Shown: one piece after another, positions 4,816-19,696 of the stretch
How the letters are laid out: each line of letters starts with the position of its first letter
Position numbering within the stretch: position 1 is the stretch's first letter
IMG/VR virus record: IMGVR_UViG_3300025652_000563
Location: 1 to 23,650 of that record
DNA from: a virus
DNA: 23,650 nt
Strand: one strand, 5' to 3'
Position numbers and translations under genes: made by a program
Notes under the pieces: model-generated
Seen by the model: the letters and a program-made list of their open reading frames with translations, nothing else
Told to the model about the DNA's origin: nothing
The model's database searches: none

Positions 4816-4930
4816 TACAGCAATAGGATTAAGTATAGGACAGGCAAATCAAGTTCTGACTCTAGTTTCTTTATCGCTAGCCATAGCTTTTACCATCTAC
4901 AAGTTTATCAAGTTTGATAAAAAAAAATGA
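4781..4930 (+). CDS. 49-aa single-helix membrane peptide (lysis-associated candidate)
   Basis: The peptide begins MQDSLQVGIANSTAIGLSIG and has one hydrophobic helix at about residues 25-41 (VLTLVSLSLAIAFTIYKF), ending with KFIKFDKKK. It has no signal peptidase site. The start lies inside the preceding tiny ORF and the stop overlaps the next ATG as ATGA, which suggests coupling to the DUF5675 gene. With a holin-like gene 0.4 kb downstream, it is a candidate pinholin, antiholin or spanin-like accessory. That is inference from size, topology and neighbours only. Confidence 0.5.
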   Translation: MQDSLQVGIANSTAIGLSIGQANQVLTLVSLSLAIAFTIYKFIKFDKKK

Positions 4931-5331
4931 TTAACCTCTTATTAATTAGAGATACATTTAGTAAGAAGTCTACGATTGGAGAACTCTTTTTAAATGGAGA
5001 AAGAATTTGTGATACCTTAGAGAATCCTTGGCAAGATAATCAAAGGAATGTAAGTTGTATTCCTCAAGGTGTTTATCCTGTAAGACTTAGACTACCAAGA
5101 GAATCAGCGACAAGGGATTATATTCATTTACTCGTAAAAGACGTTAAAGACAGAGATTATATCCTGATACATATAGGGAACACGGCTAAAGATACAAGTG
5201 GTTGTATTCTAGTAGGACTAGGAAGCCAACAAGACATTGTTAGTAACTCTACTTTAGCTATGGACTTATTAATCAAAGAAATACTACATTTGGGCGGAGA
5301 AAATATTAACTTAATAATCAAAAACAAATAA
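4927..5331 (+). CDS. DUF5675 family protein, candidate YkuD-like lysis enzyme
   Basis: This 134-aa protein fits the DUF5675 family, common in phages and usually found near lysis genes. It begins MINLLLIRDTFSKKSTIGEL, then has LENPW (31-35), CIPQGVYPVRL (44-54), and the motif IHIGNTAKDTSGCILVG (81-97). H82, S91, G92 and C93 resemble the H...SxGC active-site signature of YkuD L,D-transpeptidases. A peptidoglycan-directed activity is therefore plausible but unproven. It has no signal peptide, so export would need a holin. It sits between a one-helix membrane peptide (ATGA overlap) and a holin-like gene (1 nt gap), and no other endolysin is visible in the window. Confidence 0.7.
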   Translation: MINLLLIRDTFSKKSTIGELFLNGERICDTLENPWQDNQRNVSCIPQGVYPVRLRLPRESATRDYIHLLVKDVKDRDYILIHIGNTAKDTSGCILVGLGSQQDIVSNSTLAMDLLIKEILHLGGENINLIIKNK

Positions 5332-10255: not shown

Positions 10256-10620
10256 TACCACTAAAAAAAGAAGAACTAAAAGAACTTACTGAAAAGGTTT
10301 TAGACTTACTAGCAAAGACAGCAGTAGAAATAGGACACAGGTCAGACGCTCAAACTTTAGCAAGTCTAAGTAAGATATTTGCATCAGACTTAATACAAGA
10401 GAAAAGATTCGGCAATATGTCTTGGAATCAAATACTAGATGCTTTTCACATAGGAGTTAGGTTTGGTAAAGACGAACCATTCTTAAACATCAGAACCTTT
10501 TATAAGTGGGTGTATGCTCATAAGAAAGTAATTGATGACGCAACCTATCAAGTAAGAACATTAGGTAACGACCCTAAGCAAGTAAGATATTATCAAGAAC
10601 CTATAAAATTATTAAGATGA
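10252..10620 (+). CDS. Hypothetical replication-region protein, 122 aa
   Basis: I chose ATG 10252 because it overlaps the upstream stop as ATGA; an in-frame ATG at 10228 would add eight residues. The all-helical product carries FGNMSWNQILDAFHIGVRFG and TFYKWVYAHKKV segments. I associate this kind of protein with Bacteroidota phage replication cassettes but cannot name a family. Position directly after a winged-helix replication gene makes a helicase-loading or accessory role possible. The next small ORF starts at its stop (ATGA). Confidence 0.55.
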   Translation: MIPLKKEELKELTEKVLDLLAKTAVEIGHRSDAQTLASLSKIFASDLIQEKRFGNMSWNQILDAFHIGVRFGKDEPFLNIRTFYKWVYAHKKVIDDATYQVRTLGNDPKQVRYYQEPIKLLR

Positions 10621-10769
10621 AGAAAGAAGAATTGTACGACCCTGTAAAAACAGGAAGTTTCCGAATGATGTTCGGATTCCCACAGCCAAGTACATACCGA
10701 CCTCAAAAGTGGGTATCAATTAAAAAGCCTAAAGAAGAAAAGAATGAAGTTCGAAAACAAAGCAAATAA
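10617..10769 (+). CDS. Small basic ORF, 50 aa
   Basis: An ATGA overlap couples it to the upstream gene, and its last 26 bases overlap the start of the nuclease gene in another frame. The peptide is basic with aromatic and Pro residues (GSFRMMFGFPQPSTYRPQKW). Codons 9-13 are within a hairpin-forming sequence (10641-10654). Coupling at both ends supports translation; function unknown. Confidence 0.45.
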   Translation: MKKEELYDPVKTGSFRMMFGFPQPSTYRPQKWVSIKKPKEEKNEVRKQSK

Positions 10770-11157
10770 ATTAAGGGAGCAAGAAACTCTTAAAACATTT
10801 GCTAATCATTTCGGATTGACATTTGCTAAGCATCCTGAATATGCACACATAGACGCAGTCCTTTATAACAAAGGAAAGATAACAGGGTTCGCTGAAGTTA
10901 AGGGAGTTCATAGAAGTATAGAAGATTCTAGTGATGTTATAGTTTCAATGCGTAAAATTGTAAGAGGTCAGATGTTACAAGTGCAAACTAAAAAACCTGT
11001 AGCTATCTTATGGGCATTTGATGACGCTATAGTCTATGAAAGAATTAACAACTTAAAAGGAATCTTCTACTATGGAGGAAGGGCAGTAAGAGAAGGAAGT
11101 ACATTTGACCAAGAGATGTTAGTTAAAGTATTAATCAAAAACTTAATTAGAATATGA
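10744..11157 (+). CDS. PD-(D/E)XK-type phage nuclease candidate
   Basis: The 137-aa protein shows the core of a restriction-endonuclease-like fold: an N-terminal helix with E12/E14, HIDAVLY with D37, and GFAEVKG with E51 and K53 (E-x-K). This is followed by helices and strands (KPVAILWAF). The size suits a single-domain nuclease such as a VRR-NUC-like or Holliday-junction-type enzyme. It lies immediately before the NinG-like nuclease (ATGA overlap) in the recombination cluster, so branched-DNA processing is a reasonable inference. The exact family is not certain. Confidence 0.65.
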   Translation: MKFENKANKLREQETLKTFANHFGLTFAKHPEYAHIDAVLYNKGKITGFAEVKGVHRSIEDSSDVIVSMRKIVRGQMLQVQTKKPVAILWAFDDAIVYERINNLKGIFYYGGRAVREGSTFDQEMLVKVLIKNLIRI

Positions 11158-12936: not shown

Positions 12937-12958
12937 GGGGGGGTGTGGTTACCTCCCC
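12937..12958 (+). promoter_or_regulatory. Strong stem-loop leader before the tiny-ORF cluster
   Basis: GGGGGGGT-gtggtt-ACCTCCCC forms an 8-bp stem with one G-U pair and a 6-nt loop. After the stem come aatacaataagact and ATG 12973, so 14 nt separate stem and start, as at 6572-6604. There is no U-run. The rest of the 89-nt gap (12884-12972) holds an imperfect direct repeat around AGACCT (12898 and 12922) and nothing else I can support. Confidence 0.5.
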
Positions 12959-14726: not shown

Positions 14727-15396
14727 TGTATATGTAATATCAGCAGGAAGATATGATAAACTCCCATTCAATGAAGAACAGAAAGGAAAATACATATTCT
14801 GTGTTAAAAATGGAGAAGGACAGTTATACAAAGATAATGGATGCTTGAATGTTTATGAGACAGGAAACTTGATGGACAGTAGGAACTTTGCTTTAGAACA
14901 CGCATTCAAACTTAAAAAGATATGCGTTCAGCTAAGTGATGATATTAAAAAGGTAGTAGTAAATAAGAACTTTGGAGAGCCTGATAAAGTAGAACTTGAT
15001 TTCGCCATTGAAGATATAGTTTCAAGGTTCATTAATGTAAAAGGAGTAAAGCTATTAGGAATACCACCAACAGATAATTACTTCTTTGCTGCAAAGTTAG
15101 TAAGCGTAAACACTTTCTGTATTGGAGATATGTTATTTGTAAAACCATCAGACATTAGATTTGATACTCAGCTCACTCTTAAAGAAGATTACGACTTTAC
15201 TTTACAACATAAGCAAAGGGGAGATGTTATAAGGTATCAGAAATACTTATTTACTTTTGAGCATTATTCTAACAAAGGAGGAGCTGTTGATGTAAGAGAT
15301 GATAAAGAAGAACAGAAAAACATAATGATACTCAAATCAAAGTGGGGAGATAAGGTAAGACTAAACTCTAAACGAAAAAACGAAATACTAATATGA
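14716..15396 (+). CDS. GT-A-like glycosyltransferase, TET/JBP-associated type
   Basis: The 226-aa protein has features of a compact nucleotide-sugar glycosyltransferase: VYVISAGRYDKLP at the start, NLMDSRNFAL (51-60), an acidic QLSDD motif (72-76) in the place of the metal-binding DxD, and LKEDYDFTLQH (155-165) with H183 further on. This matches my memory of glycosyltransferases found beside phage TET/JBP genes. It would attach a sugar to a hydroxylated base made by the neighbouring dioxygenase. It overlaps ParB by 11 bases and the dioxygenase by ATGA. Sugar and acceptor are unknown, and a non-DNA acceptor is possible. Confidence 0.6.
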   Translation: MKHNVYVISAGRYDKLPFNEEQKGKYIFCVKNGEGQLYKDNGCLNVYETGNLMDSRNFALEHAFKLKKICVQLSDDIKKVVVNKNFGEPDKVELDFAIEDIVSRFINVKGVKLLGIPPTDNYFFAAKLVSVNTFCIGDMLFVKPSDIRFDTQLTLKEDYDFTLQHKQRGDVIRYQKYLFTFEHYSNKGGAVDVRDDKEEQKNIMILKSKWGDKVRLNSKRKNEILI

Positions 15397-16199
15397 AGAC
15401 ACTAAAGCTAGAGCAAGTAGAACACAATAAAAAAATAGGTAAAGACTGTCCTTACTATGAGCCAAATGTAAAAGAAGATTGTTTACTAGAAGTTGATGGT
15501 GAGATTGTAGGTTTTTACATAAGAGATGTAAAGGAGTATAGCGAAAGGTTGAATCTATTATTAGCAGTAGCCAACAAAGAGTTCAGGAGTGATAATGTGC
15601 CTAAGACAATCCTAGATAGAATGAGTACAGTACAGTTAAGTAAAACAGGAATGACAAGAAAAGAAGCAAGGAAAATAGGTGTAAGTCAATATAGCACAAT
15701 ACTTGGTTCTATTCCTCCAAGACCTGTAATGCGTAGACCTTACCCAAACATATCATCAGTACATAGAGTTGAAACCGCACAGACATTTGTAAAAGCAATG
15801 TGGGGAGCTTGTTTAGAAGCAGAGCAAATTATAAAACAACTTACACCACACATATATGAAAGGCAATTAGAATTACTTGAAGACGTTAAAGATGAATGGA
15901 AGTTTGGAACAATGTACACAGGTAGTATATCTAACTTTAACATATCAGCACCATTTCACAGAGATACAGGAAACATTGTAGGAACAGTAAACATAATCCT
16001 CACTAAAAGAAATAACGCTAATGGTGGGTGCTTAAATGTGCCTGACTATAATGTAACCTTTGAACAAGCTGACAACTCAATGTTAGTTTACCCTGCTTGG
16101 AAGAATGTACACGGAGTAACACCAATAAAACCAATAGCAGATAATGGGTATAGAAACAGCTTAATCTTCTATCCATTGAAAGCATTTAAAGGAATATAG
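15393..16199 (+). CDS. TET/JBP-like 2OG-Fe(II) dioxygenase
   Basis: The C-terminal double-stranded beta-helix has every expected catalytic residue: H189-R-D191 in APFHRDTGN, GG (211-212) before LNVP, H240 in NVHGVTP, and R254 in YRNSLIFY for 2-oxoglutarate. HxD...GG.L..P...W..HGV...R.S is the pattern of TET/JBP base hydroxylases rather than prolyl hydroxylases. The N-terminal half (QYSTILGSIPPR, RRPYPNISSVHR) is a conserved-looking extension of unknown role. The likely reaction is oxidation of a base methyl group, 5-methylcytosine or thymine, in DNA. It is coupled to the glycosyltransferase (ATGA) and ends 1 nt before terS. Substrate not determinable from sequence. Confidence 0.72.
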   Translation: MKTLKLEQVEHNKKIGKDCPYYEPNVKEDCLLEVDGEIVGFYIRDVKEYSERLNLLLAVANKEFRSDNVPKTILDRMSTVQLSKTGMTRKEARKIGVSQYSTILGSIPPRPVMRRPYPNISSVHRVETAQTFVKAMWGACLEAEQIIKQLTPHIYERQLELLEDVKDEWKFGTMYTGSISNFNISAPFHRDTGNIVGTVNIILTKRNNANGGCLNVPDYNVTFEQADNSMLVYPAWKNVHGVTPIKPIADNGYRNSLIFYPLKAFKGI

Positions 16200-16560: not shown

Positions 16561-17749
16561 GAAATACAATCCACTATTTGAATCTGATGCTAGATACTTT
16601 ATAATTACAGGAGGTAGGGGTTCAGGAAAGTCTTTCGCAGTTACAGTCTTTCTTACTTTACTGACAATGACTAAAGGGATAAGAATACTCTTTACTCGTT
16701 ATACAATGGTATCGGCTCACTTGTCAATTATCCCTGAATTCTTAGAAAAGATAGGGTTACTAGGATTTGATGAAGTCTTTAGCATTAACAAGCAAGAAGT
16801 CCTTAATAAAAAAAATGGTTCAGATATATTATTTAGAGGTATTAGGACTTCAGCAGGTAATCAGACGGCTAGTCTAAAGTCATTACAAGGAATAAGCACT
16901 TGGGTATTAGATGAAGCTGAAGAACTTATTGATGAAAACATCTTTGACACTATTGACCTAAGTATAAGGGAAAAGAATATACATAATAGAATCATACTTA
17001 TATTGAATCCTGTAACTAAAGAGCATTGGATATATAATAGGTTCTTTGAGGAGAAAGGTGTTGAAGGTGGTTTTAATGGTGTTAAAGACAATGTATGTTA
17101 TATCCATAGCACTTACCTAGATAATATAGTAAACCTCTCAGAGAGCTTCCTAGAGCGTATTAAGAGCATAAAGCATACTAACTTTAAAAAGTACACGCAT
17201 AAAATCTTAGGAGGGTGGCTTGACAAGGCAGAAGGAGTAGTCTTTGACAATTGGAGTATAGGAGAATTTAATCCTGATGGACTTCAGACTTCTTGTGGAA
17301 TGGACTTTGGTTTTAGTGTAGACCCTGACTCCTTGACTGAAGTTGCTATTGATAAGAAGAAACGAAAGATATACCTAAAGGAACATATCTACAGAAACGG
17401 ATTGAAGTCAAATGAACTTGCTCAGATAGTTTTAGATAAAGTAGGGCAAAGTCTGATAATAGCTGATAGTGCTGAACCAAGACTGATAGCAGACCTTAGA
17501 CATTTGGGAGTAAACATCAAGCCTGTAAAGAAAGGAACTATCGAAAGTGGTATTACTCGTATGCAAGATTATGAGCTTATCATAACACCTGAATCTACTA
17601 ACATAGCTAAAGAGCTAAACAATTACATATACGCTGATAAAGGCTCTAAGCTTTACGTAGACAACTACAATCACGCAATAGACGGAATAAGGTACAATGT
17701 AATTTACCACCTAGACAATCCAAACGCAGGGAAGTATTTCGTTCAGTAA
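16547..17749 (+). CDS. terL: Terminase large subunit (non-ATG start, CTG proposed)
   Basis: Numbered from CTG 16547 (400 aa): Walker A GGRGSGKS (22-29), Walker B VLDEAEE (120-126), and an RNase H-like nuclease with D253 (MDFGFSVDP), D307 (IADSAEP) and D379 (HAIDGIRY). It is the ATP-driven packaging motor that also cuts concatemers. The frame opens after a TGA at 16541 and contains no ATG, GTG or TTG before Walker A; the first ATG (16667) would remove the P-loop. CTG 16547 gives a family-like N-terminus (MILNKKYNPLFESDARYF). CTG 16553, ATA 16550, a +1 shift from terS or a sequencing error are alternatives. Confidence 0.85.
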   Translation: MILNKKYNPLFESDARYFIITGGRGSGKSFAVTVFLTLLTMTKGIRILFTRYTMVSAHLSIIPEFLEKIGLLGFDEVFSINKQEVLNKKNGSDILFRGIRTSAGNQTASLKSLQGISTWVLDEAEELIDENIFDTIDLSIREKNIHNRIILILNPVTKEHWIYNRFFEEKGVEGGFNGVKDNVCYIHSTYLDNIVNLSESFLERIKSIKHTNFKKYTHKILGGWLDKAEGVVFDNWSIGEFNPDGLQTSCGMDFGFSVDPDSLTEVAIDKKKRKIYLKEHIYRNGLKSNELAQIVLDKVGQSLIIADSAEPRLIADLRHLGVNIKPVKKGTIESGITRMQDYELIITPESTNIAKELNNYIYADKGSKLYVDNYNHAIDGIRYNVIYHLDNPNAGKYFVQ

Positions 17750-17781: not shown

Positions 17782-18381
17782 ATGAAAGTAAAAATTAAAA
17801 AGGAAGGTAAAGTAAAGGAGTTCAAGCTAATCAATAGTTGGTCAGATGTTACTCTGTCTACTTGGCTTAAACTTATTGACTTTGAAACAGGTACAAAGAC
17901 TGAAGAAGCTACTGAAACAATAGCAGCACTATCTGACATTCCTAAGAAGTTAATTAAGGAACTATCCTTATCAGACGTTGCAGTTATAATGAGTAAGGTA
18001 GGAGAGTTACAACAAGAGCAAGATACAAAGCTAAAAAGGATTATAGAGATTAACGGAGTTGAGTACGGATTCCACCCTGACTTAGATTCTATTAGTTTAG
18101 GAGAATACGCAGACATTGAGCAGTTCATCAAGAATGGAATAGACTCAAGTCTTCCTGAATTGATGGCTGTACTCTATCGTCCTATCAAACTAAAGAAGAA
18201 TGACATTTATATAATTGAGCCGTATGATGGAGATATTCGGCTCAGAGCTGAAGAAATGAAACTGATGTCAGCGGAACAAGTGCAAAGTGCATTGGTTTTT
18301 TTTTACACTTTAGGGAAGGTATTATCCGAGATTATGCCATTATATTTGATGGAGCGGCTGAAGGAAACGAAGACGCAGTAG
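17782..18381 (+). CDS. Tail assembly chaperone, unshifted product
   Basis: The 199-aa zero-frame product is soluble, with a beta-rich start (MKVKIKKEGKVKEFKLINSW), several helices (LSTWLKLIDFE, IPKKLIKELSLSDVAVIMSKV) and EINGVEYGFHPDLDSISLGEYADIEQFI. This arrangement, a gene of about 200 aa between packaging and tail genes whose end carries a slippery run, is that of tail assembly chaperones (lambda gpG type), which hold the tape measure protein. Nine T residues (18296-18304) lie in codons 172-175. The terminal part after the run (YTLGKVLSEIMPLYLMERLKETKTQ) is present only if no shift occurs. Family call rests on context and architecture. Confidence 0.6.
   Translation: MKVKIKKEGKVKEFKLINSWSDVTLSTWLKLIDFETGTKTEEATETIAALSDIPKKLIKELSLSDVAVIMSKVGELQQEQDTKLKRIIEINGVEYGFHPDLDSISLGEYADIEQFIKNGIDSSLPELMAVLYRPIKLKKNDIYIIEPYDGDIRLRAEEMKLMSAEQVQSALVFFYTLGKVLSEIMPLYLMERLKETKTQ
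18297..18303 (+). other. Programmed -1 frameshift site T_TTT_TTT
   Basis: In the zero frame the codons are GTT TTT TTT TAC. T TTT TTT at 18297-18303 is a canonical X_XXY_YYZ heptamer allowing both tRNAs to re-pair one base back. The -1 frame is open from 18252 to 18554, has no start before the conserved-looking part and ends inside the next gene. No clear downstream pseudoknot was found by eye. Analogous to the lambda G-GT shift. Confidence 0.72.
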
Positions 18382-18554
18382 CTAGTAATGACTTCGCAAG
18401 TAAGTGGGGATGGTTCGGAGTGATGCATAGGTTGTGTGGAGAGGACATTAGTAAATTAGAAAGTATTACAAACTTGAGTCTGTTAGAGTGTTTGACTTGG
18501 CTTAGTTATGAAACAGATTTGAACTCACAAAATAAAGTAAAAAGAAATGGTTAA
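18303..18554 (+). CDS. Tail assembly chaperone -1 frameshift extension (GT-like)
   Basis: After the slip, translation continues for 83 residues (LHFREGIIRDYAIIF...), giving a total of about 257 aa with the shared 174-residue N-terminus. The extension has NDFASKWGWFGVMHRLCGEDI (about 29-49) and SLLECLTWLSYETDL, the helical, Trp-rich pattern of chaperone C-terminal parts. The first in-frame starts (GTG 18420, ATG 18423) would cut off the SKWGWFG segment, so independent initiation is unlikely. It overlaps the next gene's start by eight bases. In lambda the long form binds the tape measure and recruits tail tube subunits; the same is inferred here. Confidence 0.65.
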   Translation, partial: LHFREGIIRDYAIIFDGAAEGNEDAVASNDFASKWGWFGVMHRLCGEDISKLESITNLSLLECLTWLSYETDLNSQNKVKRNG

Positions 18555-19095
18555 TAATAAGACATATAATAACGTAGTAAACACCTTACTTAGATTAGGA
18601 GAATACCACGACCAAATAAGCACGACTTCAGTAGGTGATATTTTTGACATCAACTTAGAGAAGATGCAGAAGTTCCCATTGCTACATATTAATCCAACAA
18701 GTGTAACTACAGGAGATAGTCAGCTTACTTATAACTTCCAAATATTCATAATGGATATGGTATCGGAAAAAGAAGATTGGACAAAGAACAATGCATCAGC
18801 TAACTTTCCAAAGCTTTACAAGACTTTAAGTAATGAGCAAGACGTACTTAACGAAACTCTACAAATAGCAACAGACTTTATAGGAATGCTTAGACATTCA
18901 GAACAACAGTCTTTAGCAGGAACAAATGACATTAATGCTCCTATCTATTTCACACAAGACCAATTCACGATTGAACCATTCTCAGAAAGGTTTGATAATC
19001 TTTGTTGTGGATGGACATTCACTATTGGAGTCTTAGTTCAGAATGACTTTCAAACTTGTATCATTCCTGTAACATCAGAAGGAGCAGGTTATTAA
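18547..19095 (+). CDS. Tail structural/terminator-like protein, 182 aa
   Basis: The protein begins with a helix (MVNNKTYNNVVNTLLRLGEYH) followed by strands (LTYNFQIFIMDMV, 60-72), a central helix (DVLNETLQIATDFIGMLR) and a closing beta region (PFSERFDNLCCGWTFTIGVLV) ending in CIIPV. This alpha-beta plan and the position among tail genes resemble tail terminator or tail completion proteins. I cannot name a family with certainty. The start lies eight bases inside the chaperone extension and the stop overlaps the next small ORF (TAATG). Confidence 0.5.
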   Translation: MVNNKTYNNVVNTLLRLGEYHDQISTTSVGDIFDINLEKMQKFPLLHINPTSVTTGDSQLTYNFQIFIMDMVSEKEDWTKNNASANFPKLYKTLSNEQDVLNETLQIATDFIGMLRHSEQQSLAGTNDINAPIYFTQDQFTIEPFSERFDNLCCGWTFTIGVLVQNDFQTCIIPVTSEGAGY

Positions 19096-19166
19096 TGAAA
19101 TGGAAAATTGGATATATTACAATACAGTTAAGTTGGAAAGGATGGAAAATAACATTTGATTTATGA
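19095..19166 (+). CDS. Tiny Trp-rich ORF, 23 aa
   Basis: It shares a base with the upstream stop (TAATG) and overlaps the next ATG as ATGA. The peptide (MKWKIGYITIQLSWKGWKI plus four residues) has three Trp and alternating polar/non-polar residues. It may simply keep ribosomes coupled across the gap; too short for a functional call. Confidence 0.3.
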   Translation: MKWKIGYITIQLSWKGWKITFDL

Positions 19167-19696
19167 AGACTGAAAACATAGAAAGATACTTAAATAGCTT
19201 CGGTAAGCAAGTAGTGAATAGGTCTAAGGGAAACTTACAGAAAGCAGGTAAAGGAGGTAAGCTTGAGGAGTCTATTAGTTTTAAGGTAATTGAAGACGCT
19301 GATGGTTTTACTGTTCAGTTCTATATGTCTTACTATGGTCAGTTTGTAGATAAGGGAGTTTCAGGAACTCAAAAGAAAAGAACCTTTAAAGACTATAAAA
19401 GCAAAACAATAAAAACTCCTTACGGATATAAGAACGCTAAAGGACATTCACAGCCACCTAGTAAAGCTTTAGATAAATGGGTAGTAAGAAAAGGAATAGC
19501 ACCAAGAGATGCAAGTGGTAAGTTTTTAAAGCGTAAGACAATAACATTCTTAATAGCTAGAAAGATTGGACGTTTCGGAATACAAGGAATAAGTTTCTTT
19601 CAAAAGCCTTTAGGACTTGGTTTAAAAGAGTTCGGTAAAGACTTACTAGGAAGCGTAAAAGAAGATATAATTAACAGCATAACAACAATTAAATAA
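19163..19696 (+). CDS. HK97 gp10-like tail completion protein
   Basis: The 177-aa basic protein has YYGQFVDKGVSG (57-68), the F/YxxFVxxGxSG-type core seen in HK97-gp10-like or tail-completion proteins, then a variable basic middle and TFLIARKIGRFGIQGISFFQKPL (128-150), close to the common ...GIxxxxFFxxPL ending of the family. These proteins sit at the head-tail interface and are needed to finish tails. It lies between the terminator-like and major structural genes, and its TAA overlaps the next ATG by one base. Confidence 0.65.
   Translation: MKTENIERYLNSFGKQVVNRSKGNLQKAGKGGKLEESISFKVIEDADGFTVQFYMSYYGQFVDKGVSGTQKKRTFKDYKSKTIKTPYGYKNAKGHSQPPSKALDKWVVRKGIAPRDASGKFLKRKTITFLIARKIGRFGIQGISFFQKPLGLGLKEFGKDLLGSVKEDIINSITTIK

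Follow-up and report, generated by a model that had tools for sequence, protein, structure and literature searches.

The standard example of ribosomal recoding during phage assembly is the G/GT frameshift of phage lambda, whose slippery heptamer is G_GGA_AAG. Both G/GT recoding in tail chaperones and transcriptional slippage at nine-base runs are already known. Phage tail chaperones of known mechanism use the ribosome, and slippage of RNA polymerase at runs of nine A or T, with an RNA–DNA hybrid of 9–10 bp, has been reviewed (PMC5009743). The E. coli enzyme slips by insertion (about 5% on T7, 10% on T8) and does so more readily on T than on A (PMC6260861). The literature that we searched, with subscription journals mostly outside it, returned no case of transcriptional slippage in a tail chaperone and no report of the phage family described here as recoded.

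The window analysed here is the whole of a 23,650-base stretch of virus record IMGVR_UViG_3300025652_000563. On its plus strand, an ORF of 199 codons (17782–18381), hereafter G, encodes a putative tail assembly chaperone. Near its 3′ end lies a run of nine T (T9, 18296–18304) read as GTT TTT TTT TAC, within which an in-phase heptamer, T_TTT_TTT (18297–18303), forms a candidate site for a ribosomal −1 shift. Open reading in the −1 frame extends over 18252–18554, the stop codon lying at 18552–18554. From the slip it reads FFLHFREG...SKWGWFG...KRNG*, giving an extension, T, of 83 codons plus stop (18303–18554) that carries a KWGWF motif. A slip from the zero frame of G into T is predicted to yield a G–T fusion of 257 aa. 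Between 18252 and the WGW motif, the −1 frame of the window holds no ATG, GTG or TTG. The end of T overlaps the start of the next ORF (18547–19095) at 18547–18554, and the stretch between T9 and the G stop (18305–18381) is dual-coded. A TAG in the +1 frame (18311–18313) lies just 3′ of T9. The preliminary description had placed an in-phase heptamer in a run of nine T near the end of a roughly 200-codon gene, followed by 83 open −1 codons without a start ahead of SKWGWFG and ending just inside the next gene, and this was exact. It had further held that simple ORF calls would miss the extension; they do miss the join, but the 3′ part of T is annotated in one cultured relative (gp39 of P12024S, see below).

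A search of IMG/VR with the G protein returned 314 relatives, and the best 80 of these (84–100% identical) all carried 9 to 12 consecutive T together with a −1-frame T extension. A second search used the T part only as its query, which was built without the run. This returned at least 591 relatives and, among the 80 kept after dereplication, 73 had T9 and one had T10. The pooled set comprised 471 loci, with some contigs held twice, and was reduced to 147 loci by dereplication at 90%. Runs could be scored in 464 of the pooled loci: 431 carried T9, 32 T10 and one T12, with none shorter. In all 464, as in the window, the run contained an in-phase slippery heptamer and was followed by T in the −1 frame; all three registers of the run occurred. 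Comparison of the slippery site and extension in related phages had been proposed in the preliminary description, and both were kept in 464/464 scored loci. No other heptamer was found in place of T_TTT_TTT in the family. The seven unscored loci (L031, L120, L134, L225, L242, L357 and L434) were explained, where inspected, by contigs that ended too early, by a stop within T (L242) and by a frame change (L225). The frame change in L225 lies 3′ of the run, near the contig end, and puts G and T in the same frame, and L242 combines an intact T9 with a stop in T; both anomalies are probably errors or decay.

The same arrangement occurs in two cultured phages of Nonlabens, P12024S and P12024L, whose G proteins are 29–36% identical and whose T9, in the same register, is followed by a −1 extension reading FFLSFRERL...LKWSWY.... 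A tblastn search of the phage collection with the T part of the window gave no match; T of P12024S is a diverged copy reached through G. The G and T parts are annotated in the P12024S record as the hypothetical proteins gp38 and gp39, and gp39 (locus L235) covers the 3′ portion of T, its start being arbitrary. Two minus-strand calls in the same phage, gp40 and gp43, run into the ends of opposite-strand tail genes and are probably spurious. A very divergent group (L435–L478) keeps the G–T9–T arrangement as AGT TTT TTT TTG, with the run at about locus position 1000, but was found with a pattern including FFF and hence is not an independent test of the run. Most of its members have a G6 run just 5′ of T9, and T reads AGYGWLMVVWRMANKDVLKF. 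In the most distant relatives (e.g. L101, L103 and L210), the zero frame of G extends about 55–90 codons, overlapping T, and this tail has a conserved C-terminal stretch, GxGIxxSMxxLKExLxDL. These relatives thus have a long dual-coded region, in which the tail of the zero frame may serve a role of its own.

The gene directly upstream of G encodes the terminase large subunit (16667–17749, plus strand; phrog_3717, 1.7e-33). Two genes past G lies a homologue of P12024S gp42 (19163–19696, plus strand; phrog_29822, 1.9e-14), a tail-completion/neck-like gene; gp42 itself matched phrog_5 (tail completion) at 4.2e-4. Tail chaperone genes usually, though not by definition, stand immediately 5′ of the tape measure gene. 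In P12024S the probable tape measure gene gp49 (phrog_58, 2.2e-4) begins about 6.6 kb downstream of G/T; the window stops short of its own tape measure gene. The lambda layout claimed in the preliminary description is therefore found inside the gene but not around it, with the terminase upstream and the P12024S tape measure gene far downstream. Elsewhere in the window, a queuine tRNA-ribosyltransferase-like gene (15393–16199; phrog_6059, 2.7e-51), possibly for DNA or tRNA modification, directly precedes the terminase small subunit gene. The window also contains a G7 run at 12937–12943 and an A9 run at 4919–4927, just before an ORF at 4927–5331. The Nonlabens phages, together with a locus in a Bacteroidetes MAG (L234), suggest a host within the Bacteroidota. 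A scan of bacterial genomes with the G protein found no homologues. A DNA-pattern scan of bacterial genomes returned nine stretches, with G–run–T in L234 only, and a T profile run over 395 genomes of the same phylum matched the L234 genome plus one weak partial hit.

Selection was analysed in 53 aligned, gap-free near relatives, the window included. In the part of T beyond G, dN/dS was 0.14 in the −1 frame (0.11 for G), and variation was concentrated at the third codon positions of that frame. Stops were absent from the −1 frame and present in all 53 sequences in both other frames. Nucleotide diversity in this near clade was 0.0 across T9, 0.092 across the dual-coded stretch, which is constrained in both frames, and 0.16 across G. 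These alignments place the T extension under purifying selection in the −1 frame. The gene pair has −1 access near the end of its first ORF and an extension lacking its own start. Mechanism left aside, recoding at the T run is almost certain on this comparative evidence. The programmed −1 frameshift of the preliminary description is accordingly borne out strongly as programmed −1 access at the T run (464/464; dN/dS 0.14), but its choice of T_TTT_TTT as the signal fared less well, as relatives keep a total run of at least nine whatever the register and conserved downstream structure was not found, a pattern that suits transcriptional slippage no less well than ribosomal frameshifting.

The length of the run is what is new here. 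The heptamer needs seven T, though the minimum across the 464 scored loci is nine, and the run slides in register without ever falling below that number. Among the 147 dereplicated loci, surplus T 5′/3′ of the heptamer numbered 1/1 in 117, 0/2 in 11, 2/0 in one, 1/2 in 13 and 2/1 in five; the combinations 0/1, 1/0 and 0/0, which would give a run of eight or seven, never occurred. Where the pre-heptamer codon is AGT, TCT, ACT or GCT (middle T lost), the post-heptamer codon is TTG, which brings the total back to nine. In two loci (L032 and L040) the run has slid the opposite way, to ATG TTT TTT TTT GCT, and still counts nine. This codon coupling gave P = 2e-10 over all loci (Fisher; 90% dereplication, phylogeny ignored), the strongest data coming from a search pattern containing FFF[VA]KFR that favours such sites, and P = 0.013 (phylogeny likewise ignored) in a small subset whose retrieval did not depend on the run. 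The encoded amino acids, V/L/I before and Y/W after, partly dictate the two flanking T of the commonest register. The family therefore shows one feature used to recognise programmed transcriptional slippage, a homopolymeric A/T run of about 8–9 or more whose length is conserved. A +1-frame stop lies within 30 nt past the run in 145/147 dereplicated relatives, so the products of other slips end at once.

Long homopolymers are scarce elsewhere in these phages. A runs of at least nine were seen seven times in other genes against about 25 expected, whereas A8 was near expectation (43 vs 48). T runs reaching nine were not found in the open frames of related phage loci other than the G genes. Avoidance of long runs may also reflect DNA replication slippage. 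T7–T8 in the coding genes of related phage loci occurred about half as often as expected in almost every phase.

We interpret the locus as a case of G/GT recoding in a tailed phage, probably infecting Bacteroidota, in which the frame change would occur mainly by slippage of RNA polymerase, a reading that the sequence comparison moderately favours. Ordinary expression would give G (199 aa), and a minority of events at T9 would move decoding into the −1 frame downstream and give the 257-aa fusion. During transcription, nine U would fill the RNA–DNA hybrid and realign, such that some transcripts gain one U, and ordinary translation of a U10 transcript would read into T. By analogy with lambda, G may coat the tape measure protein and T may recruit the major tail protein. 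Polymerase slippage is favoured because a run of at least nine is kept in a sliding register and because no conserved stimulatory RNA structure was found. A pseudoknot-free model of 37 sequences yielded zero consensus pairs downstream, and nine downstream segments of eight phages showed no unusual folding (z-scores −1.43 to 0.67). Shine-Dalgarno sequences are absent from Bacteroidetes mRNAs (PMC6847099), and on that account a dnaX-like upstream stimulator is unlikely. The slippage rates cited above are those of the E. coli enzyme, from which the RNA polymerase of Bacteroidota may differ. Insertion of a single U and −1 slippage by the ribosome yield identical residues (V-F-F-L-H here), so mass spectrometry could show the fusion but cannot separate polymerase from ribosome.

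The main competing explanation is −1 frameshifting by the ribosome on T_TTT_TTT, as in lambda G/GT but with another heptamer, T9 then being the heptamer plus amino acids required in two frames. We regard this as a serious possibility, though a less likely one than polymerase slippage. Every nine-T run also holds the in-phase heptamer, which speaks for the ribosome and against the polymerase reading; tail chaperones of other phages shift in this way, with reporters from an HK97-like cluster giving 6–7% (PMC3711429); and the conserved [VLI]FF[YW] and FFL around the run are alone enough to give T9 in the commonest register. Against it stand a run that is never seven or eight across the 464 loci, including those with a changed register or changed residues, and the failure to find conserved downstream structure in the sequences and segments folded above. 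Moreover, in E. coli U_UUU_UUU promotes shifting less strongly than A_AAA_AAG does (PMC5009743), and the family yielded no other heptamer. The two processes may also act together, with ribosomal −1 slippage on T9 adding to slippage by the polymerase. Explanations that dispense with recoding fare far worse. It is very improbable that T stands as a separate gene initiating by itself, or that it is reached by translational coupling once G has ended, with no change of frame. The P12024S annotation takes this form, gp39 starting at the gp38 stop, but an ATG, GTG or TTG before the motif is lacking in the window and in 82/147 dereplicated relatives, and only 5/147 have an ATG. The T frame opens no more than 6 nt 5′ of the run in 19/147, and it is at the run that −1-frame selection and the conserved FFLxFR set in. 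The G stop falls 30 to 276 nt past the slip codon, which would leave coupling without a fixed place. Phase variation at the DNA level or homopolymer sequencing error, concealing what is really one fused or one broken gene, is the least credible reading of all. Homopolymers are prone to both, and the frame change 3′ of the run in L225, near a contig end, may be of this type; against this reading stand exactly nine T in 431 loci, scored T10 and T12 loci that all keep G and T in different frames, and the dual-frame constraint 3′ of the run.

A separate question, compatible with either mechanism and weighed apart from the explanations above, is whether the recoding is real but the protein is something other than a tail assembly chaperone. 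The studied G matched PHROG 32199, a family without assigned function, at E = 1.2e-14; 40/40 diverse G proteins also matched this family. Pfam and NCBIfam assigned G no function. AlphaFold2 predicted G as a confident mixed fold with a long helix at its end (mean pLDDT 83.6), whereas the T part alone folded poorly (pLDDT 58). Structural matches to G were uncharacterised phage proteins, including one of Flavobacterium phage 6H (E = 5e-4), and two weak Foldseek matches (E = 0.02 and 0.25) were to entries bearing the name tail assembly chaperone. Foldseek and VIA-align of G against the PDB produced nothing usable and no confident match to a solved tail chaperone. One relative weakly matched Pfam Phage_TAC_7 (0.099) and one the phrog_166 tail protein profile (2.5e-5). 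The weakness of the matches to named chaperone families and a gene order unlike that of lambda would suit a different protein. The G–slip–T architecture with its small helical C-terminal T part, the nearby neck/tail-completion homologue and the structural and phrog_166 matches speak for a chaperone. On architecture, position and these fold and profile matches, a G/GT tail assembly chaperone is very probably the correct reading, and another identity is unlikely. The preliminary description had named the gene so, and this holds as the best reading although its family match is weak.

Across this large phage family, probably of Bacteroidota, it is an evenly balanced proposition that polymerase slippage on T9 generates the chaperone fusion and that transcription sets the ratio of the two proteins. 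If so, evolution keeps the two-protein ratio rather than the mechanism, in a phage family common in environmental viromes, and run length would be a simple tuning knob. For annotation, the consequence is that simple ORF calls leave a fusion unjoined in two cultured phages and in metagenomic genomes by the hundred. P12024S and its Nonlabens host provide a cultured system in which the mechanism is testable.

Among known phages, P12024S and P12024L (Nonlabens, also given as Persicivirga) are closest, with gp38–gp39 belonging to the same family and agreeing in the register of T9, in having both G and T, and in an upstream terminase; they differ in being annotated as two hypothetical proteins with the join unmarked. 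Flavobacterium phage 6H (Duneviridae) also has a G-like protein (AGN89393; E = 5e-4) followed by a T-like −1-frame ORF, but lacks T9 and has just TGTTTTTTC. In its genome (L238, KC959568), the G-like gene occupies 10352–10927 on the minus strand, the T-like ORF just downstream is unannotated, and a stop in the −1 frame comes right after TTTTTTC. PHROG 25418 spans the G-like and T-like parts of phage 6H, so some record joins both. With lambda G/GT the locus shares a G ORF that gives −1 access close to its 3′ end, and a T extension readable solely as a fusion. It differs in having no detectable sequence relation, in T9, in following the terminase gene where that of lambda directly precedes the tape measure gene, and in a run-length constraint that points to the polymerase. 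In this last respect it resembles Shigella mxiE and spa13 and Thermus dnaX, where polymerase slips on A/T runs of about nine and no ribosomal signal is needed (PMC5009743); those are bacterial genes and not phage tail chaperones, whereas the gene described here serves phage assembly and is dual-coded over a long stretch.
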